From a virus: a DNA stretch of 33,255 nucleotides. The translations under genes were made by a program, and so were the position numbers. Positions within the stretch are counted from its first letter, which is position 1, and each line of letters starts with the position of its first letter. The notes below the pieces were generated by a model. It was not told the origin of the DNA. It did not search any database and saw nothing but the letters and a program-made list of their open reading frames with translations. This document shows, in pieces, positions 13,379 to 33,082 of this stretch. The stretch lies in the IMG/VR virus record IMGVR_UViG_3300010885_005209, positions 1 to 33,255 of that record, one strand, 5' to 3'.

Positions 13379-13415
13379 CCTATAATAATGCAAAAATAGG
13401 GCTCTATTCGCCCTA
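13379..13415 (-). promoter_or_regulatory. Promoter-like element A
   Basis: Read on the minus strand it runs TAGGGCG, 16 bases, then TGCATTAT and TATAGG, ending 31 bases before the giant-protein ATG. Elements B and C share the TAGGGCG box, the same spacing to TGCATTA, and the TATAGG end. This copy is 4 bases shorter between TGCATTA and TATAGG. TATAGG resembles the start-site end of T7-class promoters. A sigma-70 reading is possible but gives no good -35/-10 pair in all three copies. Confidence 0.55.
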
Positions 13416-13418
13416 TTT
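13394..13418 (-). terminator. Intrinsic terminator after the 83-residue protein gene
   Basis: A perfect 9-bp inverted repeat (AAATAGGGC / GCCCTATTT) with a 7-base loop, followed on the minus strand by a T run. It begins within the stop codon of the gene ending at 13417, and the TAGGGCG box of element A forms one arm of the hairpin, so terminator and promoter-like element are interlocked. Confidence 0.75.
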
Positions 13419-13668
13419 AGCTGCTTGGACCGTTGATAATCATGGTAAATTCTAATGCCCAGTTTTGCCATTCTGTAAACAATGTGGGGTCGGGAACTGG
13501 GTATACTGAAAACGTTGGCAGCTGAGCTACGTTCTTTGCAGTTTCAAGCCAATTCTCTTCAGCGTTGTAAGGAATTAACTCTTGCGAGTAATACATAACC
13601 AAATTGCCGTTCCAATCTTCCCAACTCATATTGGTTGGGATAAACGGAAAAAACTGTTGAAAAGCCAT
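13417..13668 (-). CDS. Small conserved virion-like protein, function unknown
   Basis: 83 residues, rich in aromatic residues and Pro (begins MAFQQFFPFIP, six Trp in total), acidic, without signal peptide or membrane segment. I do not recognise a named family. Its start overlaps the nozzle gene stop by one base (TAATG), and it is the last gene before a terminator, which places it in the tail unit. It may be a small tail component or chaperone; this is a guess from position. Confidence 0.7.
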   Translation of the reverse strand: MAFQQFFPFIPTNMSWEDWNGNLVMYYSQELIPYNAEENWLETAKNVAQLPTFSVYPVPDPTLFTEWQNWALEFTMIINGPSS

Positions 13669-15806
13669 TACGGTCTTTCGTCGCCGTACTCTGCAGTAAT
13701 TAGCAAACGACCCATTTCGTAATTGCCATCAATATCATTAGACTCAAACTTTAATCTAATTTCACGATGTTCAACACGCAAATCAATTTTGCCAGTGTCA
13801 GCATCAAACGCATAGGGGCCAGAATCTTCAGTAGTGCCACGCGCAAATTTGCGGCCTAAGATAGTTAGATTTATTTCACCCGATTGTACAAAGTCTGGCT
13901 CAATACGACGCATGTGCATGCGGCGATTAGCGCCCTCTGGGGCATCTTGAGATGGTGTGCCACCAACCCAGCTAATGTCACAAGTTGTAAAGCTAGAAGT
14001 TACTGCTGTTTCGGCAATATATGAAACTTCATTTAGACCAAACTCATGCTGCCATAATGGATAGCCACCAGTAATACCGTAGACAGTACTACCAAGAGCC
14101 GGGTACGGGGACAGTGGTTCATCTAGTGTAATTCTAGTAACACCAGGCGCTGGAACAAAAGCATTAAAAATGTGTACACTAGTTAATACTTTATACACAG
14201 TGGCCGATGGGCTTTGTGATAAAGTTAAATAGTTTCCCGGAGCAAATGTATTGGTAACGTCACCGTCGATGTACACCTGAGACGATGTAGGAGCTGGCTC
14301 ACTAGCGGGGTTTGTAATGGTTGTAAATGCTTGACTGTAGGATACGTTATAGTCCCAACCAGCCCAAATAGGTGTTGGAAAAATCTCAGTAGTCCAACCA
14401 CAAGAACGTCTAGCACCATCGGCTTCGCCAGCGTCATACCAAAGTTTATCTTTTACGTTGTAAATAATTGCGTCAGTAACTTCTGTTGCGCTGCCCCTAG
14501 GATAAAAGAACCAGATTTCATTGTAGCGTGGTACCTTAGTAGCCCATACTTTTTGGCGCTGTACAAAGTTCATGTTATCAAGCAGCCAGTTTATGTTTTT
14601 ATCATTGGCTAAAACACTTACTACGCCGTTGTACTGATAAAAACGGTCAACGCCGAGCCAATAGTACACACCGTCCATCTCAACTACTGCAGATGAAGAC
14701 ATAATAGAAATCTGGCTAGAAATAATATCGTAACGCCAATATAGCGGGGCGCTACCTGTGAACGATACGCGAATCAGTGAGTCAGTGGCCCAAAACAAAC
14801 CGGATGGTGAGTTTGTACCGCCTCGAACTGGCACGCCTTTAACAATCTTGGAGGAAGACATGTTGACTTGGTTGGCTGTTGCGCCGTTCCAATCGCTTAG
14901 TGTTTGACTTCCATAAGTAGATTCCACATGATTGTTGGCAATATAACCGTTATCACCATACACAAAAATATAAGGATAGAGTACACAAACTCCACCGGAA
15001 ACGCTGATCGGTCTGTATGTAGGGTTTTGACCCGTTGTATCAGCCAAGCCATAAAAGTTCCAAATGCCCGGCGCATCTTCTGTAACGTTACCATAAAGGA
15101 CCTGAGAAGGAACTCCGTTGTCAATGTTTGCTAAGTTTAAACCGGGATGAGCTAATACTTTTAGCTCTTCACCAGATGGGGAGTACTGTAAATCAAACTG
15201 CCATAAATGGCGGATGTCATAAGAAAACGTATCGTTTGCAATCCAAACGTTTGTTGGTGTTCCGGTATACGCTGGTGTAAATGTTACTGTCGTTACCGGC
15301 GATGCAAATGTAGGAGTTCCTACTGTTGTATAAATAGTAGGATTAGCTGATTGATCAAATATAACTTGAGTGCCAGCTGGGTATACTGAAGAGTAGTCAA
15401 CGATTGGTACGGCTGTGCTAGTTAACTGAAACGTAGTTGTAGAGCCGCCAGTTGGAACTTGCTGTGCGTAACCTTGATTAATAACAGCTGGATAGGGGCC
15501 ACTACCAACACCGAATGTTGTGCCAGTTGTAAACACATCAATACCACCAGCGTTACCAACATAAATATAGTTAATGCCGTTAAAGGCGTTGGTGACCATG
15601 CCGCGAGGAATACCATTAAACGAGCCAAACAACTGACGATAACCGCCCATTTTCTTTGGTGTGCCACGTTGAAAACGGCACCACTCTCCGTCACTAAATT
15701 CACGTGACTCAAAGATTGTACCGTCACGTTTAATACCAGGTTCTACACGAAGGGTATAAACAACGTTGTACTGTTGTGGTGCTGATTGTACTGGGTTGTC
15801 AGCCAT
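13668..15806 (-). CDS. Tail nozzle / DNA stabilisation protein (P22 gp10- or T7 gp12-like)
   Basis: 712 residues, dominated by beta-strand patterns. The N-terminus has a REFSDGEWCRFQRGTPKKMGGY segment spread over residues ~35-56, with the CRFQ-x-G-x-P-x-K-x-GG signature of phage tail stabilisation / nozzle proteins. Repeated blade-like strands follow (for example VVEMDGVYYWLGVDRFYQY and EIWFFYPRG), fitting a beta-propeller hub. An inserted Thr/Pro-rich domain lies at about 105-190 and another near 510-590. The C-terminus has a conserved-looking RRMHMRRIEPDF stretch and a strand-rich end. Its place after adaptor-type genes supports a role as the ring or nozzle closing the tail. The exact homologue cannot be decided from sequence alone. 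Confidence 0.65.
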   Translation of the reverse strand: MADNPVQSAPQQYNVVYTLRVEPGIKRDGTIFESREFSDGEWCRFQRGTPKKMGGYRQLFGSFNGIPRGMVTNAFNGINYIYVGNAGGIDVFTTGTTFGVGSGPYPAVINQGYAQQVPTGGSTTTFQLTSTAVPIVDYSSVYPAGTQVIFDQSANPTIYTTVGTPTFASPVTTVTFTPAYTGTPTNVWIANDTFSYDIRHLWQFDLQYSPSGEELKVLAHPGLNLANIDNGVPSQVLYGNVTEDAPGIWNFYGLADTTGQNPTYRPISVSGGVCVLYPYIFVYGDNGYIANNHVESTYGSQTLSDWNGATANQVNMSSSKIVKGVPVRGGTNSPSGLFWATDSLIRVSFTGSAPLYWRYDIISSQISIMSSSAVVEMDGVYYWLGVDRFYQYNGVVSVLANDKNINWLLDNMNFVQRQKVWATKVPRYNEIWFFYPRGSATEVTDAIIYNVKDKLWYDAGEADGARRSCGWTTEIFPTPIWAGWDYNVSYSQAFTTITNPASEPAPTSSQVYIDGDVTNTFAPGNYLTLSQSPSATVYKVLTSVHIFNAFVPAPGVTRITLDEPLSPYPALGSTVYGITGGYPLWQHEFGLNEVSYIAETAVTSSFTTCDISWVGGTPSQDAPEGANRRMHMRRIEPDFVQSGEINLTILGRKFARGTTEDSGPYAFDADTGKIDLRVEHREIRLKFESNDIDGNYEMGRLLITAEYGDERP

Positions 15807-17065
15807 TAAAACGTTCCGCCGCTAATAAGTGCTGCTGTAAACGTGGCTGGTGTAGATATTTGGGGATCAAATGGATTTGAGTTGTCAATGTTAATCATCT
15901 CAACGCCGTTTGCTGTTAAGCCAAGCACACCAATATTGGCCAAGTACATGCCAGTGGTGGTGTCATTTAAAAATGAAAATGACGGTGTGGCAGCGGCACC
16001 ATCGTTTGCAAAAAATGCCGTTGTGGCGCTTTGAGAAATAACATATAAGTTATTACCATCACTTAACACTAAAACAACCGAACCAGGGGTTACTGGAGTT
16101 GGTGGTTGAGATGTGCCCGATACTTCAAAAAACAGATTGTATGGGCCTAGTGTATCATTAGCCAGAATATAAATCTGTGTTGTTGCAGGCAATATAACTG
16201 TTAAGTCAGTTGTACGAGTGCCTGATTGTGCAACATAAGTTTGAATAATTGGTGCATAGGATACCAAGCTAAATGTAGCACCCACAATGGAGTCAACGTC
16301 GTAAGACGCTGATGTAAAGGTTACGTTTGATGGTGTTGCAAGTCCAACGGTAAAAAAGTTACCCGTGGATTGCTGGAACATAATAATACCTGAATCGCCC
16401 GGATTAACGGTAAGATTAGAGATATTATTTATTTGGGAAATGCCGTTAGGCACAATGTTTAACGCGCCAGTTCCGTTGTTACGGAAAGAGATAAACCAAC
16501 CCGCTGTTAATCCCGCCGTCGCTGGTAGGTTAAACGTGCCGTTGCCACCAGTCCAAACAAAGGTTGTTGCCCTGTCTGTGTTTAACGCAGTTGTTGTGGT
16601 GGAGATTGTTTGAACGTTTTGGGTAACGTTGAGCTTACCAGAAAGAGCAGCTAATCCGTAACCAGCCAATGTGGCCGCGTCAGCAGATGATGTGCCAGTG
16701 CCAAACGTAACGTTTTGCCAGACACCTGCTGTGGTGCTGTTATCAGAAAGATAAAAATAAACAGATGTGCCAGATGGTATAGATACAGAAGAACCACCGT
16801 CAAAGTCATTTACAAAGAATGTTACGGCACCAAAGTTACGGAACAAAATGTCTATACCAACAGAACCTTGTTGTGCGTTTGGTAATGTTATATTAAGCCC
16901 TGCGCCATCGGGTGTGCAGTCCATAATGCGGGCTGCAGGAACCTGAGTTGGGTTTATAACAAGGGGCCAGTATAAGTCTACATCTGCATCAAAATTAAGG
17001 TCAAAGTATGATACATCAGTTTGTTGGATGACGTCCCCAGTAAACGGCGATGTGTATGTCGGCAT
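15806..17065 (-). CDS. Tail fibre or tail-associated beta-structured protein
   Basis: 419 residues, Thr/Asn/Gly rich and beta-rich throughout. Repeated units around GWFISFRNNGTGALNIVPNG (about 190-210) and similar strands suggest a repetitive beta-sandwich or beta-helix. Near the end, NDTTTGMY…GVLGLTANG matches a short motif that is common close to the C-terminus of phage tail fibres. It overlaps the nozzle gene start by one base and follows the adaptor gene, so it may be a fibre fixed at the tail vertex, separate from the main fibre cluster at 22212-31729. The substrate is unknown. Confidence 0.65.
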   Translation of the reverse strand: MPTYTSPFTGDVIQQTDVSYFDLNFDADVDLYWPLVINPTQVPAARIMDCTPDGAGLNITLPNAQQGSVGIDILFRNFGAVTFFVNDFDGGSSVSIPSGTSVYFYLSDNSTTAGVWQNVTFGTGTSSADAATLAGYGLAALSGKLNVTQNVQTISTTTTALNTDRATTFVWTGGNGTFNLPATAGLTAGWFISFRNNGTGALNIVPNGISQINNISNLTVNPGDSGIIMFQQSTGNFFTVGLATPSNVTFTSASYDVDSIVGATFSLVSYAPIIQTYVAQSGTRTTDLTVILPATTQIYILANDTLGPYNLFFEVSGTSQPPTPVTPGSVVLVLSDGNNLYVISQSATTAFFANDGAAATPSFSFLNDTTTGMYLANIGVLGLTANGVEMINIDNSNPFDPQISTPATFTAALISGGTF

Positions 17066-17068
17066 TTA

Positions 17069-17689
17069 TTAAGGCTCCTGTACAGTCGTATTTCTATCAA
17101 TACGACGTGAATTGTCTTCTTTCTTAAGCGCAGATAATGAATCTGTGTAGTATGTTTTCCAGATTGGTAGCTTATCAATTGCCTTGAGGTAGCCTTGGGC
17201 CTGTAACAGTGCACCAAATAACATTGCTTGGGGACATTGTTGTGTAAACAAATTAGTTTGATTGGCTGTATCCAATGGCTGAACCAAGCTGTAATAAATA
17301 ATTTCTACAGGATATGAGGCATCTGGAACTGGTGCAATAGCCCAGTTGTTGTAGTCGTACTCAGCGTAATATTTTGGTTGACCGGGATCGGATTCAGATT
17401 GATATTGGGCCACATAGTCCTGTGAACGTATTAGAATTGGCTTACCGTTTACCTTCATGGAGACAGTTTTTCTCCAGCGAGTTGGCTTTTCAAGAATGTC
17501 TTGGGCGGCTAGTATATTGGTTTCAACTACAATTAACTGTAGCAGTGTCTTTAACTCAGAGGCAATTGCAGACTCAGCTAAACCAATTAAGGCCGGGATC
17601 TGGGCCACAAATTCAGCGTCGTCGCGCTCCATGTAGTTGATTATATCAGCTACTAAGTTGTCATACGTCATTACGTAAGCGGCTGTCAT
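17069..17689 (-). CDS. Head-tail adaptor protein (SU10-adaptor / gp4-like)
   Basis: 206 residues. It begins with a helical segment (MTYDNLVADIINYMERDD) and an AESAIASELKTLL helix, followed by strands ending in RSQDYVAQYQ and YYAEYDYNNWAIAPVPDASYPVEIIYYS, then a C-terminal helix. This helix–beta–helix order and the A-P-x-P-x-x-x-Y-x-(V/I)-x-(I/L)-x-Y-Y pattern are typical of phage connector adaptors that form a ring below the portal. It lies between a second connector-like gene and tail genes. I am fairly sure of the class but not of the named family. Confidence 0.7.
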   Translation of the reverse strand: MTAAYVMTYDNLVADIINYMERDDAEFVAQIPALIGLAESAIASELKTLLQLIVVETNILAAQDILEKPTRWRKTVSMKVNGKPILIRSQDYVAQYQSESDPGQPKYYAEYDYNNWAIAPVPDASYPVEIIYYSLVQPLDTANQTNLFTQQCPQAMLFGALLQAQGYLKAIDKLPIWKTYYTDSLSALKKEDNSRRIDRNTTVQEP

Positions 17690-18768
17690 TATCGTGTGTA
17701 GTAAGAGATATTAGGTTGGAAGTAGATTGGTGACTTGTCACGGTCTTCTTCTTCAAATTGGGTGCGTAAATCTAGCGCCATCTTTTCCAAATAACCAATA
17801 CGCGCCATATCTACACCGGGTAATTGCATAGACAACTTGTGTGATAACGCTGCTTGGAAGTAAGCAATGGCGCGATCCGGCATGTACAACTCATTTGTTA
17901 GTGATCCGACGTCCTGTGGTTGACATTCAATAATCAATGAGAATGCTTGGAAGTTATTGTTTGGAACAGGCCATAGATACATCTCTGGGTCGATCTGACG
18001 ATTGAACCAGTATTGTAGTGAGCGTTGGCTTGGGAATTGCTTGTTAGGTAAGGAAAAGTAATCGGTACGATTGAGTCGTGCCATTGGGATTACTTGTTGT
18101 GACTGAGCAAATTGAATTGCACGCATTGACATAGTAGAGCCAACGGTGCGGTTGTTTAGGCGATAATAGTTAAACGCCTGAGTAGTGTTAATGCCATAGT
18201 ACTGCCATTGACGATCAGCTAATGTAACTGTTGGGAATGATTCCCAAGTAGTCCAAGTGATGCCGTCATCACTTACCTCGAAATCCAAATCATAAGTAAT
18301 ACTGCCAAGAGGAGCATAAGCATTAAAGCCAACATAGAATAACCTCGTCGCTTGAGAATAAGCTGCACCAAAATAGTTATCGAGTAATGTACTGGTTCCG
18401 TACTGATTAAGATCAGCGTTTGCACTTTGATCAAACATTGGAGGAACTGTTGTATTACTTACCGGCAGTGTGTCGGAGAACGTTGGATTAATAATGTAAA
18501 TCCAGTTTGCCTCTAAAACATCAACGCAGTTGATTGGCATTGGAAGTACTTGCTGGTTTGTTTGAGCACCTAGAACCACAACCTCTTGTAGCCAGATATT
18601 AATGCCACGGTTTACAGAGTTTTGAAGCACATAAAATAATGCTTGTTTTCCAGCATCAATATATTCTGGGGTGATTTCTTCTGCTGTCTTACCAGCATCA
18701 CGAAAAGCATACGAGATCAACTGATCTACGTTGATCTTTGTTTGATTATAGGTGCCAGAGTAGGACAT
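17689..18768 (-). CDS. Connector / tail accessory protein with discoidin-like insert
   Basis: 359 residues. The N-terminal ~80 residues are helical (VDQLISYAFRDAGK…PEYIDAGKQALFYVLQN), like tail accessory proteins that bind the portal; the C-terminal part (~225-359) has QRSLQYWFNRQIDPEMYLWP and a helix around PDRAIAYFQAALSHKLS, much like other adaptor folds. Between them (about 110-225) is an inserted beta-sandwich resembling an F5/8 type C (discoidin) domain: FEVSDDGITWTTW followed by strands and YYRLNN. The insert could point outward and bind sugars. The gene overlaps both neighbours by one base (TAATG). The connector role is inferred from fold pattern and context. Confidence 0.65.
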   Translation of the reverse strand: MSYSGTYNQTKINVDQLISYAFRDAGKTAEEITPEYIDAGKQALFYVLQNSVNRGINIWLQEVVVLGAQTNQQVLPMPINCVDVLEANWIYIINPTFSDTLPVSNTTVPPMFDQSANADLNQYGTSTLLDNYFGAAYSQATRLFYVGFNAYAPLGSITYDLDFEVSDDGITWTTWESFPTVTLADRQWQYYGINTTQAFNYYRLNNRTVGSTMSMRAIQFAQSQQVIPMARLNRTDYFSLPNKQFPSQRSLQYWFNRQIDPEMYLWPVPNNNFQAFSLIIECQPQDVGSLTNELYMPDRAIAYFQAALSHKLSMQLPGVDMARIGYLEKMALDLRTQFEEEDRDKSPIYFQPNISYYTR

Positions 18769-19118
18769 TATTTTTTATTTCCGCGTTTTGTTTTTCCGCC
18801 TTTTTTAAGCAGTAACAAATTGCCACGTATTTGTGGGGGCGCCATTTTTTTTAATTTTCCATCGACAGGAGAAGTCATCATGTCAGTTGGTTTTTTATAT
18901 GGCATTTCCACTGGTTCCATAATAGTATTATCTGGAGCACCCATAGCCCGATTTAAATTAACATCTGGTGTAGCTGGGCGTGGAGCTCTTTCAAACGCCG
19001 TGGGTTTACTAGGATTTTTTTTAAGATAAGCAGTAAGGTCATCCATAGTAACATCGCCACCGGCTTGATAGTGTTTACCTTCACAAGCCATCTTGGTGTT
19101 TTGTTTAAAGTCTTTCAT
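18768..19118 (-). CDS. Small basic protein with double-glycine motifs
   Basis: 116 residues, Lys/Pro/Met rich, with no membrane segment. Two double-glycine motifs are seen: HYQAGGDV (G20-G21) and LLKKGGKT (G107-G108), the latter next to a very basic C-terminus. The middle part is Pro rich and probably disordered. It is one of three small basic genes between element B and the connector genes, and starts one base after the preceding stop. Function unknown; nucleic-acid binding or virion scaffolding are possible. Confidence 0.65.
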   Translation of the reverse strand: MKDFKQNTKMACEGKHYQAGGDVTMDDLTAYLKKNPSKPTAFERAPRPATPDVNLNRAMGAPDNTIMEPVEMPYKKPTDMMTSPVDGKLKKMAPPQIRGNLLLLKKGGKTKRGNKK

Positions 19119-19119
19119 A

Positions 19120-19287
19120 TTAACGTCCTCGGCCTGCGGCCCGTTTCATTACTTTATTAGGTAGCTTGTTGGATGCAAAGCCCGACTTAACAAACTCTTT
19201 GCCAACCTTTTTAGGAATGCCTAAGGTGCTCTTGCCTTCAGCTGCGGCATACATAGCACCTTGTTGTGCCTTTGATTTAATTGGCAT
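19120..19287 (-). CDS. 55-residue basic protein with KSKAQQ motif
   Basis: A short gene encoding 55 residues, starting [20 protein letters not shown] and ending in a Lys/Arg-rich RAAGRGR. The [22 protein letters not shown] pattern is one I recognise from small phage proteins, close to the N-terminal motif of DUF3008. It fits exactly between its neighbours, with 2 bases to the upstream stop (TAATCATG) and 1 base to the downstream start (TAATATG), which supports it as a real gene. Function unknown; strongly basic, so DNA or RNA binding is possible. Confidence 0.75.
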
Positions 19288-19289
19288 GA

Positions 19290-20150
19290 TTAACAGCTCT
19301 TTTTAACTTTACCACCACGTTTTTGCATTGGCACGCCAGCGTTTGGTCTCATTTCTGGGTGATTAGCATATTCTTTCAGTATGTCTTCCTGTGACTGCAT
19401 TTGTGGCAATCCTTTAGCTTGTGCGGCGTACTGCATATCTGCGTTACTAAGTCTACCACCACCTAATCCTGCTGCCACACCAGATTGCATGGCGGCACCA
19501 CCAATACCACCGGCGCCGGCGCCTTGCATTGCTGCAGCGGCCATTGCTTTTTTCTTGGCAATCATGTCCATACGTTCTTTTGCAATACGGTTCTGTTCTG
19601 GTGTGCCCATTACATTGTCACGTAACGCAGTTCCAGCGGAACCAATAGCATTTCCAGCTGCCCGCATTGGGTCAAGTAGCGCATTGGCATCTGCCATTGG
19701 GCCACTCATACCACCATCGGCCATTTTCTTTACAGACTTACCACCACAAAATTTAGCGGGTGTGTTTGCAGGCTTACCAACGGGGGCGCTTTTTGCCGTT
19801 GCCTTAGTTGGCTTAATTTGTTTTACTTTTTGAATTGCCTCTATGTCGCCAGATTTTTTCTTGGCTTCGTATACATTAGTTACGTTACCACCAGCTTTGT
19901 ATTTTTTAACGGTTCCGCAGTCTTTCTTAGCACGGCCACCTTTACGTAATTTGGATAGGTCGGTCTTTTCACCAGGGTGCTCTTGCTTATCATGCATGCC
20001 GATTGCTTTTTTAACAATCTTTTTATCTAGAGCAGTATCAGCTTCATCTACCGTTTTACGATCGCGCTTAGTAAAGTTTTTTACTTCACGTTGTACTGAG
20101 CCGCCTTCTTTAAAGCACTGTATTTTAGGTAATTTGGTAAAGCCTTCCAT
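19290..20150 (-). CDS. Lys-rich protein with six double-glycine motifs
   Basis: 286 residues, first gene behind element B, with an SD-like GAGG about 8 bases before the ATG. The N-terminal half is very Lys rich; the C-terminal half is Ala/Gly/Met rich and contains a Gly-rich stretch around [11 protein letters not shown]. Double-glycine motifs occur at residues 16-17 (FKEGGSV), 71-72 (LRKGGRA), 87-88 (YKAGGNV), 136-137 (FCGGKSV), 146-147 (MADGGMS) and 279-280 (QKRGGKV). It has four cysteines, at 12, 78, 135 and the last residue. I know no function for it. Position before the connector genes suggests a virion or assembly protein. Confidence 0.65.
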
Positions 20151-20192: not shown

Positions 20193-20233
20193 CCTATATA
20201 CATTAATGCATAAAATCAGGCATTTACGCCCTA
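20193..20233 (-). promoter_or_regulatory. Promoter-like element B
   Basis: 41-base element reading TAGGGCG … TGCATTAAT … TATAGG on the minus strand, 42 bases before the ATG at 20150. It has the same total length as element C. Its TAGGGCG box starts with the TAG stop codon of the endolysin gene. No strong terminator hairpin is visible here, only a weak GGGC/GCCT stem followed by TTTTA. Confidence 0.6.
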
Positions 20234-20752
20234 GATTCCAGTTAAAAACAATGCTCTTTCACGCTTACGGCGGTTTTCTAATACCGCTGGTTTGTTCCAC
20301 ATCAGTATCGCGTCAGCCGCGCCCGCGTAGTCATTTACATTGAGACGCTTTACTACGGTAGACTTCTTAAACTGAGTCTCGCCTATATTGAAGCAGAGGC
20401 TGTATAGGGCGTCGTATTGAGGTTGTGTGAGGGGCACCCTTACCGAGTTGGCTACGGCCTCGTCACACCACTTTAAATCGCTTTCTAGGAGCTTATCTAC
20501 GTCTTCTTGAGTAAGCGTTGCCTTCATTAGGTGTGGCTCGTTGGATTTGATGAGATGGCCTACGCCAATCGTCCATAGCCCCTTGCTGTCCTGGTACGCC
20601 CTGTATCTGACGCCCTCTTCCTTGGTTATAAAGGATAGAGTCGACTTGGCTATTGCCATGATGTTCTCTTCTATGTGTGTATAGCGTTCGGTTAGGTGAA
20701 TGGCCGCAAATATGCCTACCACCCACAGTACCGCTACAATTGATCTGTTCAT
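20231..20752 (-). CDS. Endolysin, GH24 lysozyme, with N-terminal membrane anchor
   Basis: 173 residues. The muramidase domain of the T4-lysozyme family (GH24) carries the catalytic triad with the canonical spacing: E46 in KEEG, D55 in AYQD, T61 in WTIGVGH (T4: E11, D20, T26). It degrades the glycan strands of peptidoglycan at lysis. Residues 4-20 form a hydrophobic segment rich in Ala/Val/Gly without a signal-peptidase site, suggesting a signal-anchor (SAR type) endolysin that is exported and later released. A strong ribosome binding site (AAGGAG) precedes the ATG at 20752. An internal ATG at 20659 (M32) has GAAGAG six bases upstream and would give a 142-residue form without the anchor. It follows the spanin genes and ends inside element B. 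Confidence 0.93.
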   Translation of the reverse strand: MNRSIVAVLWVVGIFAAIHLTERYTHIEENIMAIAKSTLSFITKEEGVRYRAYQDSKGLWTIGVGHLIKSNEPHLMKATLTQEDVDKLLESDLKWCDEAVANSVRVPLTQPQYDALYSLCFNIGETQFKKSTVVKRLNVNDYAGAADAILMWNKPAVLENRRKRERALFLTGI

Positions 20753-20793
20753 AAATACTCCTTATTCCAAACCACTGGATTGGGGATTATATA

Positions 20794-21210: not shown

Positions 21211-21767
21211 TATACGAACCTAATAGTAAAGGCAAAGGTTGCCGGGAAGTTCTTAATTAGCGCTGTATTGTCGTGCCACTGGTCTGGCGTAATGAACGCT
21301 GGGTCAACCAACGCACGAATATTGTGCCCAAAGTTTAGGATCATCATCTTGCCAAAAACATAGTGGTATGAGTTGTACTGCCACAGGTTATGACCTTCAA
21401 CACGGATGGTGCCGGGGTGTGTCTCGTTGCAATTAATATCACCAGCGTATGACATGCCGCTTGATCCGTCAATAAACTTGACATTAAAGCCGTAGAATGG
21501 ATTACGCCAGAGCCACTGAACCTTAGACCACCAGCATGGGTTGTGCTCAGCGCGGAATGTTTGGTCGCCGTCTAGGCTGTTGTCTGGCGTCTGAAACCAT
21601 GATAGGAACGAGAACAGGCGCGGGCCTGATTGCCAAACCGTAGCGTTGTTGCACCAGCCAATTTGGGTGGAATACATGATGCCAATGATGAATGCTAACG
21701 GGAATGTAAGAATAGTCCCGATCAGGTTAGCTGGCACCAATACAAAGGCGTATAACAGTTTGTTCAT
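21210..21767 (-). CDS. Membrane-anchored protein of lysis region (DUF7338-like)
   Basis: 185 residues. The N-terminus has a hydrophobic region (about 4-32, LLYAFVLVPANLIGTILTFPLAFIIGI) of one long or two short membrane segments. The rest is aromatic rich, with a WFQTPDNSLDGDQ motif (about 57-69), WWSKVQWLWRNPFYGF, and Gly/Asn-rich strands. The TPDN-x-LDGD motif recalls a phage membrane protein family that I believe is DUF7338, often near lysis or tail genes. Its start overlaps the stop of the holin candidate by four bases (ATGA), and its stop overlaps the Rz start. Function unknown; context suggests a role linked to the envelope. Confidence 0.65.
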   Translation of the reverse strand: MNKLLYAFVLVPANLIGTILTFPLAFIIGIMYSTQIGWCNNATVWQSGPRLFSFLSWFQTPDNSLDGDQTFRAEHNPCWWSKVQWLWRNPFYGFNVKFIDGSSGMSYAGDINCNETHPGTIRVEGHNLWQYNSYHYVFGKMMILNFGHNIRALVDPAFITPDQWHDNTALIKNFPATFAFTIRFV

Positions 21768-24373: not shown

Positions 24374-24382
24374 TGATTATCC

Positions 24383-24790: not shown

Positions 24791-24799
24791 AATAAAATC

Positions 24800-25582: not shown

Positions 25583-25591
25583 GCTGTTTCC

Positions 25592-25858
25592 TTATTCTAT
25601 ATTTACAACAATGGTGTTATCTTCTAACGCCTCGATCTCATGCCACTCGTTGGCAGTTAAATCGACAGCATCGTCTGTTGGCGTTAAGATTAATTCTAAA
25701 TTCTCTTTGCGTATTACACATGAGCCCAATAAGCACATTGTTGCGTGGTTGTACTCATGCTCATGTCTTGGCAATCCCTCACCCTTATTCAGAACAAAAT
25801 CACTAACTTTTAATCCTTTATAGAAGAAAAGTTTTCTGATTGTGGCTGGGATTGTCAT
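25592..25858 (-). CDS. Cupin-domain small protein
   Basis: 88 residues from the ATG at 25858 (a GTG at 25879 would add 7 residues and overlap the upstream stop). The cupin motif 1 G(X)5HXH(X)3-4E(X)6G is matched by G26, H32, H34 and G45 with correct spacing, but the Glu is replaced by H38. H73 in NEWHEI fits motif 2. These four His could bind a metal. The size fits a single-domain cupin. It sits between an adhesin gene and a fibre-associated gene, where an enzyme is not expected; it may be a fibre component, a folding aid or a small metal enzyme. Fold confidence is good, function unknown. Confidence 0.75.
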   Translation of the reverse strand: MTIPATIRKLFFYKGLKVSDFVLNKGEGLPRHEHEYNHATMCLLGSCVIRKENLELILTPTDDAVDLTANEWHEIEALEDNTIVVNIE

Positions 25859-25862
25859 CTTA

Positions 25863-26279
25863 TTATACCGACACAACACCTGAGGTTACTGGAACCCAAG
25901 ATAGAGTTGCCTCATCCCACTCATAGGTTTTGCCGTCTGTAGGATATGGCACTGGGGCTTCCCAAAGGAATGTAGTTGTATTCAATATCCATGATGGATA
26001 AGGTTGGGGTGCATAAAATACACCAACATTACCGTTCAATGTGTAACTGGGGTCGTACGTGTAGCCAATGCCAGCGTAGTTAGCACGAAGGGCTTTAGAC
26101 TGATCTGGATCAGGCTCTGGTGGATTGCTGTTAGGAATGTAGTACACGTTGCCGTAAGTGTTGTAGCTAGTCTGTATCCAAGTTCCCGGGGATGTGTCAA
26201 CGAAGGTGTCGAAGAAACTTGCATCGGCTGCGATTACCTCCAAGACGATGTTGTTGTTGACTTTAGCGTAGTAACTCAT
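25863..26279 (-). CDS. Tail-fibre-associated protein of a common phage family
   Basis: 138 residues. The plan is familiar from many phages near fibre genes: an N-terminal strand region (YYAKVNNNIVLEVIAADASFF), TWIQTSYNTYGNVYYIP, a LRANYAGIGYTYD motif (about 64-76), a PQPYPSWILN-x-TTFLWEAPVPYP segment and a YEWDEATLSWVPV end. I recognise the pattern but not an established function; a fibre accessory or chaperone is plausible. It starts 4 bases after the preceding stop. Confidence 0.75.
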   Translation of the reverse strand: MSYYAKVNNNIVLEVIAADASFFDTFVDTSPGTWIQTSYNTYGNVYYIPNSNPPEPDPDQSKALRANYAGIGYTYDPSYTLNGNVGVFYAPQPYPSWILNTTTFLWEAPVPYPTDGKTYEWDEATLSWVPVTSGVVSV

Positions 26280-26283
26280 TTAT

Positions 26284-26451
26284 TTATGCTCCTGCTGGGG
26301 GAAGTGGTTGGTTGCCTTCAGATAGCCATACTTGGTATTGTTGCCAGTCTGTGTTTTCTGGGTCGTTGGGGATACAAGCCATGTCTGGTAATCTCCAAAC
26401 GCAACCGTCTGTTGATCCTCTAACTTCTACTAGTTGATAGTTGTATTCCAT
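26284..26451 (-). CDS. 55-residue tail fibre assembly-like protein
   Basis: A short gene encoding 55 residues (start MEYNYQLVEV). The C-terminal half, IPNDPENTDWQQYQVWLSEG followed by NQPLPPAGA, matches the IPxDPxNxDWQxYxxWLxxGNxPLP pattern found in small phage proteins beside tail fibre genes and in fibre assembly proteins. It starts on the base next to the upstream gene's stop (TAAATG) and ends 4 bases before the next start, so it fits the operon exactly. Confidence 0.75.
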   Translation of the reverse strand: MEYNYQLVEVRGSTDGCVWRLPDMACIPNDPENTDWQQYQVWLSEGNQPLPPAGA

Positions 26452-27564
26452 TTATAACTCCGAAGAAAATGCACCGTAAGAAGTGGCGCTATTACTTCCA
26501 CTCCATAAAGCGCCTGTGCCAGTAACAAATGTCCCTGCTGTTGAAATTCTTAAAAACATAGTATTGTAAGTAGACCCAACATCCGCAACTGACGTAACGG
26601 CATAGGGTGTTGCAGCAACTTGAACTGCAGTTACAGATGATGTTATCGTTGGTGTGGTTCTCATTGTTACTCTTAGAGGGACATATATATCACATTGTGT
26701 TGTACTAAATGCAAATCCATTTCCAATGATAGGGTAAAGAGGATTTCCACCAAAAGAATTTCCGCCAATTTGCTGGTAGTATCTTTGGCATTTAATTAAT
26801 TCATTTCCAAAGTCCCTAAACTCAAATCCAGTAGCAGAGCTACCTACTTCTAGTTGTACGCCTGTTATGTAGAATGTTGCGCCATTTGTGCCTACTACGC
26901 TTACTGCGCTTGTAACAGTAAAATATTGAGTAGCAGACCATGAACCAGCAGTTCCACTATAAGTTGAACCAGCTCCAAGGCTTAATCTAACCATTAACCC
27001 AATACCACTAGTTGTTAGCCAAGTTGCGGTTGTTGAACCAGCAATAGTAACACTAATTGTCGTCCATGTATTAGCAACGGAAATTGAATAACTAAATGGG
27101 TAATTTTGTGTGTTTGCGGAATTATTCAATGAACCACCAAATGTTCCTGTAAGGCTTGAATATACTTGAAATGATAGAGTTACAGTTTTGGCATTAGCAG
27201 TTCCCCAAGCTAAATCTGCAACATTGTACCCTTCAATGTATTGAAAAAACATAAAATAATCACTTGCACCTACTGTATAAGCAGAAGAAGATGTAAAGCC
27301 TAAATAGTTTGTATACCCTACTGGCGGAGTTACAGAACCAGCATTTTGTTGCCAAGTTCCTTTAGATGATTGTGAAGCCGCATATCCCCATCTATCTACA
27401 GTATAAGAATTTATAGCGGTACCACTAGCCCCAGCATTACGCTGGTCAATACGCATATCGCCGTTGATGATTCTGTTTTTAAAGACGGTAGCGTTACCAG
27501 CACCGAGGCTGACCCCCGTTACGCTGCTTTGTATTACGTCTGCGTTGATTGTTCCGTATGCCAT
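26452..27564 (-). CDS. Tail fibre protein with carbohydrate-binding-like domain
   Basis: 370 residues. It begins with INADVIQSSVTGVSLGAGN and FKNRIINGDMRIDQRNAGAS followed by YTVDRWGY, a very common phage fibre pattern. The middle (about 85-240) is a jelly-roll-like region with FFQYIEGYNVADLAWGT, TVTLSFQVYSSLTGTF and TFYITGVQLEVGSSATGFE, and the end is beta-rich with CQRYYQQ at the start of a last domain. Such regions are seen in fibres that contact polysaccharide, though I cannot name the ligand. The gene sits between the 249-residue fibre gene and the small assembly-like gene. Confidence 0.8.
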   Translation of the reverse strand: MAYGTINADVIQSSVTGVSLGAGNATVFKNRIINGDMRIDQRNAGASGTAINSYTVDRWGYAASQSSKGTWQQNAGSVTPPVGYTNYLGFTSSSAYTVGASDYFMFFQYIEGYNVADLAWGTANAKTVTLSFQVYSSLTGTFGGSLNNSANTQNYPFSYSISVANTWTTISVTIAGSTTATWLTTSGIGLMVRLSLGAGSTYSGTAGSWSATQYFTVTSAVSVVGTNGATFYITGVQLEVGSSATGFEFRDFGNELIKCQRYYQQIGGNSFGGNPLYPIIGNGFAFSTTQCDIYVPLRVTMRTTPTITSSVTAVQVAATPYAVTSVADVGSTYNTMFLRISTAGTFVTGTGALWSGSNSATSYGAFSSEL

Positions 27565-27573
27565 ACTTGTTCC

Positions 27574-28323
27574 TTAGAGAATAACCCAACGGCTGTTCGT
27601 TGGGATTGTAACTGTTACTCCAGTGTTAACCGTTATCGGTCCTACTGACTCGCCGTTATTGCCTACCGTCATCGTGTAGTTCACACTAATAATTTGATTG
27701 TTTTCAATAATTGGTCCACCTACAATTGTACTAGATCCGCTGCCAATTGTGCCCCATCCGTCGTACACGTAGCTACCAACCACTGTAGCGATGCCGCCCG
27801 GGTTAGATAGCATGGTGTAAGTAAATGTAACGGTGTCTACTACTGTTACAACAAACGTGCCATTATACGCAGCTGGCGTGCAGCCAGACATGACAATTGT
27901 ATCACCGCTTGTCAAGTTATGCGGGGTGTTTGTTACAGTTGTCGCCGTGGTGGTGACGTTAGTTAACGAGCCAATTGTAGCGCCGTTAATTGTCTGGTAA
28001 CCTTCAAAGCCGGGTGTTGTGGTGTTGTAGCGAATGTCACCTAGCGCTGGCGTTGCTGGCCGTTGTCCGCTTGTTCCCAGCGCAACACGAAGCGCACCGG
28101 TTGCGTCAACAATCAGCGTGTTATTAGCTGCGTCCCATGTCAGGTGGCTGTCTACACCGCCCTCTGCTAAGACCTGAACAACGCCGCTGCTGTCCTTGTA
28201 ATACAGAACACCGTCAGCGGTATTAAGGGCCAACTCACCAGCAACTAAGTTAATTGCTAATGGTGCACTAGCAGCTGTTGTGCTGTGGTACAGCTGAATT
28301 GGTGTTCCGCCAACTGCCGCCAT
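27574..28323 (-). CDS. Tail fibre protein, short
   Basis: 249 residues from the ATG at 28323 (an earlier start at 28350 would overlap the upstream gene). The N-terminus GGTPIQLYHSTTAASAPLA and LNTADGVLYYKDSSG is a common phage fibre segment. GQRPATPALGDIRYNT follows as the shared fibre module, then an IGSLTNVTTTATTVTNTPHN region and a C-terminal trimerisation-like end VGPITVNTGVTVTIPTNSRW. The end is closely similar to that of the large fibre encoded upstream, pointing to a shared trimer tip. It begins one base after the upstream stop (TAACATG). Confidence 0.8.
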   Translation of the reverse strand: MAAVGGTPIQLYHSTTAASAPLAINLVAGELALNTADGVLYYKDSSGVVQVLAEGGVDSHLTWDAANNTLIVDATGALRVALGTSGQRPATPALGDIRYNTTTPGFEGYQTINGATIGSLTNVTTTATTVTNTPHNLTSGDTIVMSGCTPAAYNGTFVVTVVDTVTFTYTMLSNPGGIATVVGSYVYDGWGTIGSGSSTIVGGPIIENNQIISVNYTMTVGNNGESVGPITVNTGVTVTIPTNSRWVIL

Positions 28324-28324
28324 G

Positions 28325-31300
28325 TTACAGCACCACCCAGCGCTGTCCACTGGTAATTGTTACCACAACGCCGCCAGATACCGTCATCGGCCCAACAGAC
28401 ATTGCATTTTGGCCAGCTGCAACGGTGTAGCTTGTGCCAACTGTTGTGCTGTTAATTACTAATCCGTTTGATGCAATGGTTGCTGGCGATTGTAACTCAC
28501 CAGTTGATGGCTTGTAAAGTAGCTTAGTGTTGCCAGTGTAGATTGTTGACACTGAGCCAGATGTTGCTGCAGCAAACGTTGGGTACAGATTTGTTGCTGT
28601 GGTTGTATCATTTGCTAACGTTACACCGCCCGCTGGAGTTACCCATGTAGGTGTACTGGCACCGTTTGATGTTAATACTTGGCCAGCGGTTCCTGCAGTT
28701 GTAAACGCATACGCTGTGCCTGTGCCGTAAGGAACTGCACCGGCTGTTGGTGCTGCTGTGCCGTTAGTACCGCCGTTAGCGATTGCTAATGTGCCAGCTA
28801 ATGTGACTGCTCCAGATGTTGCCGTTGCTGGTGTTAATCCTGTAGTACCTGCACTAAATGTTGTTACACCAGTTGCTGGAGCTGCAACCCAAGATGGTAT
28901 GCCAGCTGTTACTGTTAATAACTGACCTGCACTACCAATTGGCAACTTAGACAATGTGTTGCTTGCTGAAGCGTAAAGAATGTCACCAGTGGTGTACGTC
29001 GACTGACTAGTACCGCCGCTTGTTGCACCTAACGTGCCAGCTAATGTTACAGCGCCGCTAGTTGCTGTTGCTGGTGTCAAGCCAGACAATGAAGTCTGGA
29101 ATGTAGTTACAGCAGAGCCAGATAAGCTAGTCCAAGTTGGCGTTGCAGCAGATCCAGCGGAAGTTAATACTTGACCAGATGTGCCGAAGTTTGTTGTGCC
29201 GCTTAATGCTGGAGTTGTGCCTAAGTTGGTGTTTAAACCAATCGCGCCTGAAGCATTAATTACGTGGGCTGATTGACCAGCGCTTCCCCAAGCTAAATAG
29301 GTCTTAAATCCGTTGCCCGATCCGAGGGTTACATCACCGTCGTGGCTTGAGAAATAAACACCGCTGTTAATGCTAAAGAAGTCAACAGGAGTAGACGCGC
29401 TAAATGCCGATGAGTTCATACCAAACTCACCGTAGTACGTGCTGTCTGTTCCTAAGTCATTACTTACTGCAAAGTTTGTAGACGCGCCAGCTGTGCCACT
29501 CTTATTTTGCATTACAGATTGCAAGTAAGTGCTTGCTACTGTTGCACCTAATGCTAAATTACAGTTAGAGGCGTTATAATTTAATACTGGTGTAGTGCTA
29601 GTAAATGAGCTGGTAGATAAAAAAGTAAACGCGCCGGTGGATGCTGTTGTAGCGCCAACTGTGCCGTTAATGTTAATGCTTGCGGTGCCAGTGAGGTTAG
29701 TTACTGTGCCGCTAGATGGTGTACCCAGTGCGCCGCCGTTAACAACAAACGCGCCTGCAGATCCAGTGTTAACAGCGAGCGCTGTTGCTACACCAGTACC
29801 TAAGCCGCTAATACCCGTTGATACTGGCAGTCCTGTTGCGTTGGTTAACGTGCCGCTTGATGGTGTACCTAACGCGCCACCGTTAACAACAACTGCACCA
29901 GCTGATCCCGTATTAACAGCTAACGCCGTTGCTACGCCAGTTCCAAGGCCAGTAATAGAGCCAACTGCTGGGGTTACTGTTGTGTTGCCAGCTAGTGTTA
30001 GTTGGCCCTGAGCGTTAACTGTAAATGTACCAACTTGGGTGGCAGAGCCGTAAGCTGCTGCAGTAACCGCTGTGTTGGTAATACTAAACTGTGTGCCAGC
30101 TAAAGTTAATCCTGTGCCTGCAGTGTACGTGCCCGCGCCTGAGAACTGCACCCAAGGCATTGGTGTTACGTCAATTGTGCCGCCGTCGTTTGCTGTAGTT
30201 ACCCAGCCTGTATCGGCTAGTGTAGTACCAGTTTGAATAAATACAAATGAGCTTGGAACTTCTGCCCACACGTTCATGTCAGCAGAACGGGCCCATGCAC
30301 CAGCTGCAGCAACATAGATACCATTAAACTGGCTTAGTGTTTGGTTTTTAACTAAAATACGATTGCCAGCGGTAAGGCTTAAAGACCAATCACCACCAGC
30401 TTGAGTACCTAAACCAGATAAAGTAATGTCGGCAGTTGTTCCGTATACGCAAGATGCTTTTACATTTAAGCCTTGAGCAATGTTATCTACGTATTGCTTA
30501 GTAGCAAGTTGTAGATCAGATACTGGGTCTTGCGTTACTGTAACGCTTGTTAAACCTGCTGGTGCTAACTCTGTGCCACCAAGGGCGATGTTGCTGGTAC
30601 CTAAAGTAATTGAGCTGTTAGTTAACGAGCTGTTAGCAATGTTACTTAGTGTGTTTGTTGCACCGCTAATTGTCTTATTAGTCAGTGTCTGTGATGCTGT
30701 GTTAGTGGTAACTGTGTCGCTGCCAACTGTGGCAGTCGTCATGTTAAACGTGCCATCAGTTACTGTCTTACCAGTAAATGTTAAAGCCGTTGGTAGATTT
30801 AATGTAACTACAGTGCCAACTTGGGTAGAAGTAATCTCGTTAGCTGTGCCGTTAACTGCACTAATAGCGCCAATAGATGTTGGCGTAATAGATACGTTAG
30901 CCGCCGCAGTTAATTGACCTTGGGCGTTTACTGTGAATGTTGGTACAGCTGAAGATGATCCGTAGCTGGCTGCAGTAACTGCAGTGTTGGCAATGCTGAT
31001 AGTACCAGTGGAAATAATTGGGCCACCAGTAAGACCAGTTCCTGTGGAAATAGATGTTACGCCGGAACCAATTGCAAACGCACTCCATGCGCTTACAGAA
31101 TAACCTTCAAATAAGAATGTATCCGTGTTGTAGCGGATCATGCCGTTTACTGGCCCAATTGCAGTACGCTCTAAATTGGTCCCCTTTGGAATTAAAACTG
31201 CACCAGTTCCCGGGAGAATAACGTTGTCTACAATTGATATAACAGGAGCTGTTGATCCGTTTGCTACATTAATTTGATTTGCTGTGCCAGTTACAACAGA

Positions 31301-31729
31301 TAAGTAAGTTGGCAGTGTATCCCAAGTTGTGTCGTAGTTAGTGCTTGACGCCTTCTTTAAATACTGACCTGCTGTACCACCTGCCGCTACACCGGGGCCA
31401 GTAGCTCCAGTTGCACCAGTAGCTCCAGTTGCACCTACGTCACCACGTGGGATGACAAAGTTAAACATGGCCGCTTGTAGCGAGCCAACGTTTGTCACAC
31501 TTGCGTTTGTGCCGGGTGCACCAGTTACAGTGGAGTTAACCTGAATGGTTGCGCCGGGACCTGTTGGTCCTGTTGGTCCTTGGGGACCGGGAGGGCCTGC
31601 AGGACCACCTAGGTTAGCAATGTCTTGTAACTGGGTCTGCTTGGTAACGCCGTTTTGAACAACAACCGTAAGCTCATCGCCCGTTAGCGTTGTTGCTGTA
31701 CCTAGTTGTGATATACTTTGATCGGCCAT
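28325..31729 (-). CDS. Large tail fibre with collagen-like and repeated segments
   Basis: 1134 residues. Order: N-terminal anchor-like segment ISQLGTATTLTGDELTVVVQ (6-25); two collagen-like Gly-X-Y stretches (about 42-59 and 96-113) that would form trimeric triple helices; the shared IRYNT module; repeated units including FTVNAQGQLT twice, GLGTGVATALAVNTGSAGA twice and GLTPATATSGAVTLAGTL twice; a LATKQYVD motif in the middle; and a C-terminal VGPMTVSGGVVVTITSGQRW end like that of the 249-residue fibre. Repeats and low complexity are typical of long fibre shafts. Likely the main trimeric fibre of this phage. Receptor unknown. Confidence 0.85.
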   Translation of the reverse strand: MADQSISQLGTATTLTGDELTVVVQNGVTKQTQLQDIANLGGPAGPPGPQGPTGPTGPGATIQVNSTVTGAPGTNASVTNVGSLQAAMFNFVIPRGDVGATGATGATGATGPGVAAGGTAGQYLKKASSTNYDTTWDTLPTYLSVVTGTANQINVANGSTAPVISIVDNVILPGTGAVLIPKGTNLERTAIGPVNGMIRYNTDTFLFEGYSVSAWSAFAIGSGVTSISTGTGLTGGPIISTGTISIANTAVTAASYGSSSAVPTFTVNAQGQLTAAANVSITPTSIGAISAVNGTANEITSTQVGTVVTLNLPTALTFTGKTVTDGTFNMTTATVGSDTVTTNTASQTLTNKTISGATNTLSNIANSSLTNSSITLGTSNIALGGTELAPAGLTSVTVTQDPVSDLQLATKQYVDNIAQGLNVKASCVYGTTADITLSGLGTQAGGDWSLSLTAGNRILVKNQTLSQFNGIYVAAAGAWARSADMNVWAEVPSSFVFIQTGTTLADTGWVTTANDGGTIDVTPMPWVQFSGAGTYTAGTGLTLAGTQFSITNTAVTAAAYGSATQVGTFTVNAQGQLTLAGNTTVTPAVGSITGLGTGVATALAVNTGSAGAVVVNGGALGTPSSGTLTNATGLPVSTGISGLGTGVATALAVNTGSAGAFVVNGGALGTPSSGTVTNLTGTASININGTVGATTASTGAFTFLSTSSFTSTTPVLNYNASNCNLALGATVASTYLQSVMQNKSGTAGASTNFAVSNDLGTDSTYYGEFGMNSSAFSASTPVDFFSINSGVYFSSHDGDVTLGSGNGFKTYLAWGSAGQSAHVINASGAIGLNTNLGTTPALSGTTNFGTSGQVLTSAGSAATPTWTSLSGSAVTTFQTSLSGLTPATATSGAVTLAGTLGATSGGTSQSTYTTGDILYASASNTLSKLPIGSAGQLLTVTAGIPSWVAAPATGVTTFSAGTTGLTPATATSGAVTLAGTLAIANGGTNGTAAPTAGAVPYGTGTAYAFTTAGTAGQVLTSNGASTPTWVTPAGGVTLANDTTTATNLYPTFAAATSGSVSTIYTGNTKLLYKPSTGELQSPATIASNGLVINSTTVGTSYTVAAGQNAMSVGPMTVSGGVVVTITSGQRWVVL
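29697..29958 (-). repeat. Two direct copies of a ~115-bp fibre repeat
   Basis: Approximate copies at 29697-29816 and 29842-29958 encode the same GLGTGVATALAVNTGSAGA-type unit ending in NGGALGTPSSGT. The DNA differs mostly at silent third positions, so the protein repeat is kept while the DNA has diverged. Edges were judged by eye. Confidence 0.75.
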
Positions 31730-31733
31730 AGTC

Positions 31734-32132
31734 TTATATAATTATGTCGCCAGACTCGCCGGCGGTTGTTGACTGTTGCTGGTCCCGAGTAATAAATATT
31801 GAATTTCTTCTCGGGTTGTTTGGTCTGCGTACAAGCTCTTCGGGAGGGCTGTCAATTGGCCCTTCTGGTGCCTGCGCAGTTACAACTTGTTGTCCTGATA
31901 CTGGACCAGTTGCAACAGATACATCTGGGCGCGGAAAGCGTAGTGCAATGTTTTCTGTTTGAATAGCAGGAAGACGCCAAGGATCAAACTGATCTAGGTC
32001 TTCCCGACACACCCGCATTCCAGGGGAGTTTGGATCAGGCATTAAATCTGTGTACGCAAATTTCCTACTGCAGCGGTCACAGATCGCTACAGACAGGACT
32101 GAGTTACCTCGAGTATCAAGGTAAACAGGCAT
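31734..32132 (-). CDS. Small virion protein with CxxC motif
   Basis: 132 residues. The N-terminal third has MPVYLDTRGNSVLSVAICDR, C18-x2-C21, and a third Cys at 42 in MRVCREDLD, suggesting a small zinc-binding fold, although a fourth ligand is not evident (D45 or D47 are possible). The rest is Pro/Gln/Arg rich and probably disordered, with DPWRLP and ALRFPRPDVSV. The MPVYLDTRGNS start is one I have met in aquatic phage virion modules. It lies between a small virion gene and the large fibre. Confidence 0.7.
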   Translation of the reverse strand: MPVYLDTRGNSVLSVAICDRCSRKFAYTDLMPDPNSPGMRVCREDLDQFDPWRLPAIQTENIALRFPRPDVSVATGPVSGQQVVTAQAPEGPIDSPPEELVRRPNNPRRNSIFITRDQQQSTTAGESGDIII

Positions 32133-32134
32133 TA

Positions 32135-32443
32135 TTAACCCTTAACGCCAGACTGGATAACTGTTAGTGTATCAGCTGCTGTTCCGCCAGAAATGCGAAT
32201 TGCACGATAGGGTTGTGCTAAAAAACCAGCTGCATTTGGTGCAGTTGTTGGCGCAGTAACCCAAGTAAAACTTGCGGTTGTGAAGACACCGTTAACTAAC
32301 GGATAGGGGTCTGTTGCAGAAACTTGAACAGTACCAGATCCAGAGTTAACATAAGTAACTTGAAATGGTGCTTGATATTGATCAAGGATAACTGGGTCGG
32401 TGGTTGTTCCGGCTGTTGGTATTGTTACGACTACTTGACGCAT
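32135..32443 (-). CDS. Small beta-rich virion protein, unknown
   Basis: 102 residues, Thr/Val/Ala/Gly rich with alternating strand patterns and no Cys, no membrane segment. I do not recognise a family. AGGAG stands about 7 bases before the ATG. It follows the 153-residue gene after a hairpin and precedes the CxxC gene, so a head-associated or neck role is possible but unproven. Confidence 0.65.
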   Translation of the reverse strand: MRQVVVTIPTAGTTTDPVILDQYQAPFQVTYVNSGSGTVQVSATDPYPLVNGVFTTASFTWVTAPTTAPNAAGFLAQPYRAIRISGGTAADTLTVIQSGVKG

Positions 32444-32466
32444 GATTTCTCCTAGACGGTGAAAGA

Positions 32467-32482
32467 GGCGGGTTTCCCCGCC
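32467..32482 (-). terminator. Intercistronic GC hairpin
   Basis: GGCGGG-GAAA-CCCGCC, a perfect 6-bp stem with a GNRA-type loop, lies just after the stop of the 153-residue gene. It is followed on the minus strand by TCTTTC, not by a strong T run, so it may only weaken read-through or protect the upstream message. An AGACGG/CCGTCT pair at 32454-32459 and 32481-32486 could form a competing stem. Confidence 0.5.
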
Positions 32483-32489
32483 GTCTTAA

Positions 32490-32951
32490 TTAGTTATTTG
32501 TATAACCAGAACCGTAGGCAGTGATTGTACCGTCAGCGTTGCGACCTGTGTACTGTACAGACAATGTACCAGCAGAAGCTGCTTCAGAGGCTAAAGTTAC
32601 TGTGCAGTTATACGCACCAACGTTAGCCAACAAGTTAGCTACAGCAGCAGAGGCTGTAAATACTACAGCAACTTTACCTAAAGCGGTAGTTGTCAGTGTG
32701 CCAACAGCAGTAGTTGTGCCATTAACGGTCAAGCTAACAGCGCGTGAGGCTGCGCCAACTACGTTTAAGTAGCCGTCGATTGAGTGAATAATTGAACCAG
32801 CTGGGATTACATCAGTTGCTGCAGCACCGGCTACAATAGTAGTCTGCTGAGAAATCATTGCTGCGCCAGTGTTGTCGGCTGAAATTGTGCCGTCGTTACT
32901 GGTAGTTTGACGCGTATTTAAACGCATTGGTACTGTAAATGTAGATGACAT
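32490..32951 (-). CDS. Putative head decoration or capsid-associated protein
   Basis: 153 residues, Thr/Ala/Val rich and beta-patterned, with an N-terminus MSSTFTVPMRLNTRQ and a C-terminal end in YGSGYTNN. No known family is recognised. It is the first gene behind element C and directly follows the probable capsid gene, the usual slot for decoration or head fibre proteins. An AAGGAA lies about 12 bases before the ATG, which is preceded by an untranslated leader of about 90 bases. Confidence 0.65.
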   Translation of the reverse strand: MSSTFTVPMRLNTRQTTSNDGTISADNTGAAMISQQTTIVAGAAATDVIPAGSIIHSIDGYLNVVGAASRAVSLTVNGTTTAVGTLTTTALGKVAVVFTASAAVANLLANVGAYNCTVTLASEAASAGTLSVQYTGRNADGTITAYGSGYTNN

Positions 32952-33041
32952 TTGAGGTGTTTCCTTATCTTAGTGGGTATCCCAAACTGTCTCTAAGTCG
33001 TCATGCCGGGAAGGGTCGGCTGTCAGAGTGGGATAATTCTT
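32952..33041 (-). other. Untranslated leader of the unit behind element C
   Basis: About 90 bases between the TATAGG end of element C and the ATG at 32951. I see no gene here; the only ATG codons give very short frames. It contains AAGGAA as the likely ribosome binding site. The leader is longer than those behind elements A and B (31 and 42 bases). Confidence 0.45.
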
Positions 33042-33082
33042 CCTATACATATTAATGCAAATAAGTCAGCCATTCCGCCCTA
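33042..33082 (-). promoter_or_regulatory. Promoter-like element C
   Basis: 41-base element, on the minus strand TAGGGCG … TTTGCATTAATATG TATAGG, aligned along its length with element B with one small shift. It lies directly behind the terminator of the capsid gene and ahead of the 153-residue gene, as expected of a late promoter. Confidence 0.6.

Follow-up and report, generated by a model that had tools for sequence, protein, structure and literature searches.

Three copies of an element of about 40 bases lie on the minus strand of this phage DNA, each ahead of a block of genes, and raise the question of which polymerase, with which specificity factor, would read them. The window analysed (the whole stretch of 33,255 nucleotides) is a fragment more than 99.9% identical to a 63.7-kb circular record, G001, with an end overlap of 127 bases, and this near-identical record was used for the phage genome beyond the window. 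End overlaps were also present in the related records G002, G003 and G023. The source is a freshwater phage. When the first 25 kb of the window was compared at the nucleotide level with known phages, no match was returned, and no description of the two motifs or of the clade was found in the literature.

The three elements and their grammar

An earlier, sequence-only reading had placed the elements at 33082-33042, 20233-20193 and 13415-13379, and all three were located there (Table 1). As it had claimed, the distance from TAGGGCG to TGCATTA is equal, exactly 16 nt in all three, and every copy stands 5′ of a minus-strand gene block. TAGGGCG-N16-TGCATTA had three exact matches in the window, each of them on the minus strand, against a chance expectation of about 0.0002 (both boxes exact, single spacing, both strands), and TGCATTAnTR was found at three sites, all inside the elements. 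The TATAGG ends were likewise present, but not in a common register: TATAGG follows TGCATTA after 5, 5 and 1 nt in promoters 1, 2 and 3, which places the TATAGG of promoter 3 4 nt nearer. A TA dinucleotide is in register in 3/3 elements, 8-9 nt 3′ of TGCATTA (offsets 37-38 counted from the T that opens TAGGGCG). A TATAGG-anchored search of the window gave matches no commoner than in shuffles. Nor do the elements occupy the only sizeable minus-strand gaps, as had been supposed; gaps of about 170 nt without an element lie at 22043-22211 and 26280-26451.

Table 1. Coordinates of the predicted promoters, gene blocks and RNA features (window positions unless another stretch is named).
Feature	Position	Strand	Details
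Late promoter 1	33042..33082	minus	-35 TAGGGCG 33082-33076; -10 TGCATTAAT 33059-33051; predicted +1 A 33044
Gene block of late promoter 1	32951..20231	minus	
Late promoter 2	20193..20233	minus	-35 box 20233-20227; -10 TGCATTAAT 20210-20202; predicted +1 A 20195
Gene block of late promoter 2	20150..13417	minus	
Late promoter 3	13377..13415	minus	-35 box 13415-13409; -10 TGCATTATT 13392-13384; predicted +1 A 13377
Gene block of late promoter 3	13347..1159	minus	includes 2217-aa gene
Terminator-like hairpin and T-run	33087..33114	minus	GCCCACTCACAAGGTGGGC + TTTTTT; directly upstream of promoter 1; read from sequence
5′ untranslated leader of late transcript 1	32967..33043	minus	about 77 nt; conserved double-pseudoknot RNA; comparison of 26 relatives
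Small-terminase leader hairpin	stretch L153 17497-17530 (G001 37497 onward) and homologues	plus	

The earlier description of the elements as promoter-like and heading late transcription units was supported, and the element is conserved in relatives. A pattern search of IMG/VR with a longer form of the element recovered it from at least 118 stretches. Among the matches listed, 112 sites had 5 nt between TGCATTA and TATAGG, 10 had 1 nt and one had 7 nt. In the controls, the first 50 kb of MW202545 and of GB2A, the element was absent. A set of 151 distinct sites was selected solely by TAGGGCG-N16-TGCATTA. In this set a T occurred two bases past TGCATTA (TGCATTAnT) in 100% of sites, the next base was a purine in 97%, and offsets 37-38, the predicted -1/+1, were TA in 148 and CA in 3, accounting for 151/151. 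These fixed positions argue for a promoter of -35/-10 type that starts at a pyrimidine-purine step. The grammar read from the sites is a -35 box TAGGGCG, a 16-nt spacer, an extended -10 TTTGCATTAnTR and a predicted start at the A of the conserved TA. The suggestion that TAGGGCG is a second binding site is supported at the level of sequence, and we infer that transcription begins at these sites.

A sigma-54 grammar was also considered and rejected on spacing: sigma-54 promoters carry GG and GC doublets 10 nt apart, and in the present elements the corresponding doublets are separated by about 20 nt.

The leader of late transcript 1 was predicted to fold into a conserved RNA containing two pseudoknots. 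Over the 26 relatives 94% of cells were paired, and 13 of the 24 pairs had changed on both sides, whereas slid controls were at most 50% paired. The first pseudoknot is formed by annealing of a 5′ GGAAG, directly after the predicted start, with CTTCC in a hairpin loop, and the second by pairing of CTYAG with CTRAG just 5′ of the Shine-Dalgarno sequence. Because the first helix uses the GGAAG just past the predicted start, it provides independent support for a start at or before that GG. The RNA had no Rfam match; it may protect the 5′ end of the mRNA or control translation of the 153-aa gene.

At several sites the A of an ATG falls exactly on the predicted +1, as at the gene for the region-4-like protein described below and at the G001 17420 site. 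The former gene is predicted to give a leaderless mRNA, with +1 on the A of its own ATG; its -10 falls within the 3′-terminal codons of the SNF2-type helicase gene that precedes it (stretch L153 15839-15854, G001, and homologues). Further late genes predicted to be leaderless are an ORF of about 65 aa starting MKDFIS and one of about 100 aa starting MN(D/K)YVYQI, whose ATG coincides with the predicted +1 in several genomes (stretch L152 17420, G001; homologues in G002, G004, G021 and G024).

Other features of these regions were recorded in passing. In promoter 3 (13415-13386, minus) a terminator-like inverted repeat, TAGGGC..GCCCTATTTTT, is made up of the -35 box together with the spacer and overlaps the promoter; GCCC occurs within the spacer at 13 of the 151 distinct sites. 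A small hairpin (e.g. CTCGTCGGGAAGACG, CACGCTGTGAAGCG) is conserved in the leaders of the small-terminase promoters, with changes that appear compensatory. Two adjacent 360-aa genes (window 22212-24373) matched the same PHROG families (phrog_2295, phrog_25721 and phrog_2803), which suggests a tandem duplication.

A phage sigma factor and a region-4-like protein

The G001 ORF at 28022-28591 encodes a protein of 189 aa, here termed sigma23, which contains sigma regions 1.2, 2 and 3 and then ends. It had a PHROG sigma match of 1.6e-22, and its profile matched SigA in the PDB at 5.6e-33. The Pfam regions 1.2, 2 and 3 were detected in 33-37 of 37 aligned members (region 3 in 37/37, region 2 in 36/37), and the AlphaFold model (pLDDT 82.5) matched SigA and RpoS at E of about 1e-9. 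Region 4 is not in this polypeptide, as the SigA match stops at region 3. In 11 of 12 genomes the 1.5 kb preceding the sigma gene contained no site of the kind described above, and the one match, in G001, was loose; this fits an early gene, and by this measure sigma23 looks like one.

The missing region appears to be supplied by a second gene. The G001 ORF at 35854-36165 encodes a protein of 103 aa that resembles sigma region 4 and would make the sigma factor a split one. The Pfam match of the G001 protein to Sigma70_r4_2 was weak (0.009), and 16 of 43 members matched at E up to 1, below the Pfam cut-off. In an HMM-HMM comparison with 30 bacterial region-4 domains the score was 30.5 (E=3e-5), against at most 15.2 in 20 column-shuffled controls. 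The structural model was a good prediction for the three C-terminal helices alone, and the stretch expected to form the second helix of the helix-turn-helix was short and non-helical. With this model, the top Foldseek matches were mostly sigma factors, none of them significant (best E 0.54), and a PDB sequence search with the region-4 profile gave only noise. The protein does contain an invariant EKYWRYHF-like stretch.

The two genes occur together. Of 13 long records, 12 had both the sigma23 and the region-4-like gene, and the remaining one, G006, is a 46-kb fragment. Sigma23 and a separate protein of about 103 aa are encoded by every one of the 12 long genomes that cover the early region. 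The clade is widespread in IMG/VR, with 458 relatives of the region-4 protein, and no relative of this protein was present among 50,697 deposited phage records. Its sole relative in a genome collection lies on a contig in a betaproteobacterial MAG (stretch L349 7672-7971), with element-like sites adjoining, a weak hint of a betaproteobacterial host.

Two classes of site and their covariation

Sites in G001 were of two kinds. Those with the -35 box precede the late blocks of the minus strand and, on the plus strand, the small-terminase cassette, and those with the -10 but without the -35 box precede the primase-helicase gene, the region-4 gene and the DUF2800 exonuclease gene (the last at G001 38712). 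The same division held among relatives, in which primase, region-4 gene, exonuclease, SSB and polymerase mostly had the -10 only, and virion genes and the small terminase had the -35 box. In ten long genomes the box was present at 45 of 52 late-strand sites versus 7 of 33 replication-strand sites (Fisher p=2e-9), eight replication-strand small-terminase sites, all with the -35 box, having been set aside before the test. Sites were assigned to classes by pattern, and three of the replication-strand '-35' calls resemble terminator hairpins; since some of the seven are such hairpins containing GGGC, the contrast is if anything understated. There were exceptions on both strands, a few late-strand sites being without the box and a few replication-strand sites having it.

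The -10 differs between lineages, being TGCATTA in most, TGTATTA in G021 and its relatives and GCGTATTA in G025/G026 and theirs. When the late site was compared with the site before the region-4 gene, 44 loci were TGC/TGC, 7 TGT/TGT and 4 GCGT/GCGT; one locus was discordant and another mixed, and at 33 more no site could be recognised directly before the region-4 gene. The -10 type of the exonuclease site agreed in 49 loci and was discordant in 3. This agreement indicates that one factor probably reads both promoter classes.

Sigma23 itself differs in the GCGT lineage, with Asp at residue 112 and Lys at residue 122; both are Asn in 74/74 others. In the alignment, residue 122 falls at the His of the IPVH motif of SigA; this His (H455 in E. 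coli sigma70) reads the extended -10. The tie between these substitutions and the GCGT -10 is suggestive, as the six GCGT sigmas look like one lineage and shared descent could explain it. The covarying -10 types offer, over many genomes, a natural set of sigma/promoter pairs for studies of specificity.

The proposed split-sigma model, its rivals and known systems

We consider it probable that the elements are late promoters used by host core polymerase with a two-piece phage sigma, sigma23 acting alone at middle promoters and together with the region-4 protein at late ones. Early transcripts made by the host polymerase would give rise to sigma23, which would bind the host core polymerase and read the extended -10. 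Alone with the polymerase, sigma23 would direct transcription from the middle promoters, those of the primase-helicase, region-4, exonuclease, SSB and DNA polymerase genes. The 103-aa region-4-like protein, once made, would attach to the beta flap and recognise the -35, and the complete pair would fire the promoters that bear the -35 box, those of the virion genes and the small terminase. The assignment of each protein to its box and the order of these events we infer from the site classes and the genes that they precede. We lean, with less assurance, towards the view that the separate -35-reading gene is itself the middle-to-late switch: the same -10 would serve at first by itself and later together with a -35, and the region-4 gene, placed under a -10-only promoter, would form a feed-forward cascade within one grammar. 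That replication genes are switched on before virion genes may then follow from the splitting of the sigma.

The reading of the -35 box by the putative region-4 protein is the weakest step of this model. In a possible though unlikely alternative, sigma23 would read the -10, TAGGGCG would be bound by another activator of phage or host origin, and the region-4-like protein would only dock on the flap, as T4 gp33 does, or act on host sigma70, as phiEco32 gp79 does. Such an activator would accord with the weak region-4 homology and a model without the full helix-turn-helix; DNA is not recognised by T4 gp33 (PMC2988020), and phiEco32 gp79 inhibits transcription by sigma70 and stimulates a sigma without region 4 (PMC8948821). 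Against it, the box is at the normal -35 distance, a fixed 16 nt, within reach of region 4, and the invariant stretch of the region-4 protein exists alongside a nearly constant -35 box.

It is quite unlikely that there is a single promoter class with a degenerate -35, in which the -10-only sites would be weaker late copies and no middle/late switch would exist. The exceptions on both strands would suit such a scheme, but the partition by strand and gene function is strong, and the exonuclease site is without a -35 in nearly all lineages, yet its -10 tracks the lineage type.

Very improbable is the reading of the elements as promoters for an alternative sigma factor of the host. Host core polymerase is required either way and the sequence is compatible with a host factor, but all sites of a genome change their -10 in concert between lineages, as fits a reader encoded by the phage, and every long genome spanning the early region has its own sigma. 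The sequence-only reading had offered a host-factor promoter or regulator site as its alternative; the host contribution is best retained as the core polymerase, working with a phage sigma.

Almost no credence is left for its preferred T7-class single-subunit polymerase, starting at the GG of TATAGG, since, although TATAGG resembles the end of a T7 promoter and occurs at 91 of the 151 distinct sites, its gap is not fixed (1, 5 or 7 nt), a -35 box stands upstream at fixed spacing, the T7-type RNA polymerase family PF00940 was unmatched in eight long relatives, complete genomes included (T7 positive control, E=1e-109), and a sigma factor with a separate region-4-like protein is encoded instead.

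The split sigma proposed here is of a kind already known in phages, from T4 gp55/gp33 and SPO1 gp34/gp33. The SPO1 pair is alike in size, 197 and 101 aa compared with 189 and 103 aa, but middle genes there are served by another sigma, gp28. Sigma23 had only marginal similarity to gp34, and the region-4 protein had no detectable relation to gp33 by HMM comparison (E=0.62); PF25742, the family of gp33 itself, was unmatched in a Pfam scan of 43 region-4 protein members. SigO-RsoA of Bacillus subtilis is a split sigma whose activity is made of two proteins, but it is cellular rather than phage-encoded.

In phiEco32, late genes are served by a phage sigma without region 4 (gp36) at sites with a -10 only, and phage 7-11, whose late genes likewise have a phage sigma (gp47), has bipartite sites with 16-nt spacing (PMC8948821). 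These two grammars belong to separate phages, whereas here both are found in one genome, together with a separate region-4-like gene. HMM comparison with phiEco32 gp36 and gp79 detected no similarity.

In T4, gp55 is a region-2-like protein that reads the -10 and gp33 a small flap-docking mimic of region 4, encoded by separate genes and acting on the host core polymerase (PMC2988020), and the proposed pair is alike in being a sigma split between separate genes on host core polymerase. The late promoters of T4 are without a -35, its region-4 mimic does not read DNA, and the activator is the sliding clamp gp45 (PMC2988020); here the late sites carry TAGGGCG at -35 and so are not '-10 only' sites of the T4 type. 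Reviewers of T4 late transcription have asked why the halves of split sigmas are always separate, separately regulated genes (PMC2988020). Under the model proposed, the separation would gain a testable purpose, one half serving the middle promoters and both the late ones.
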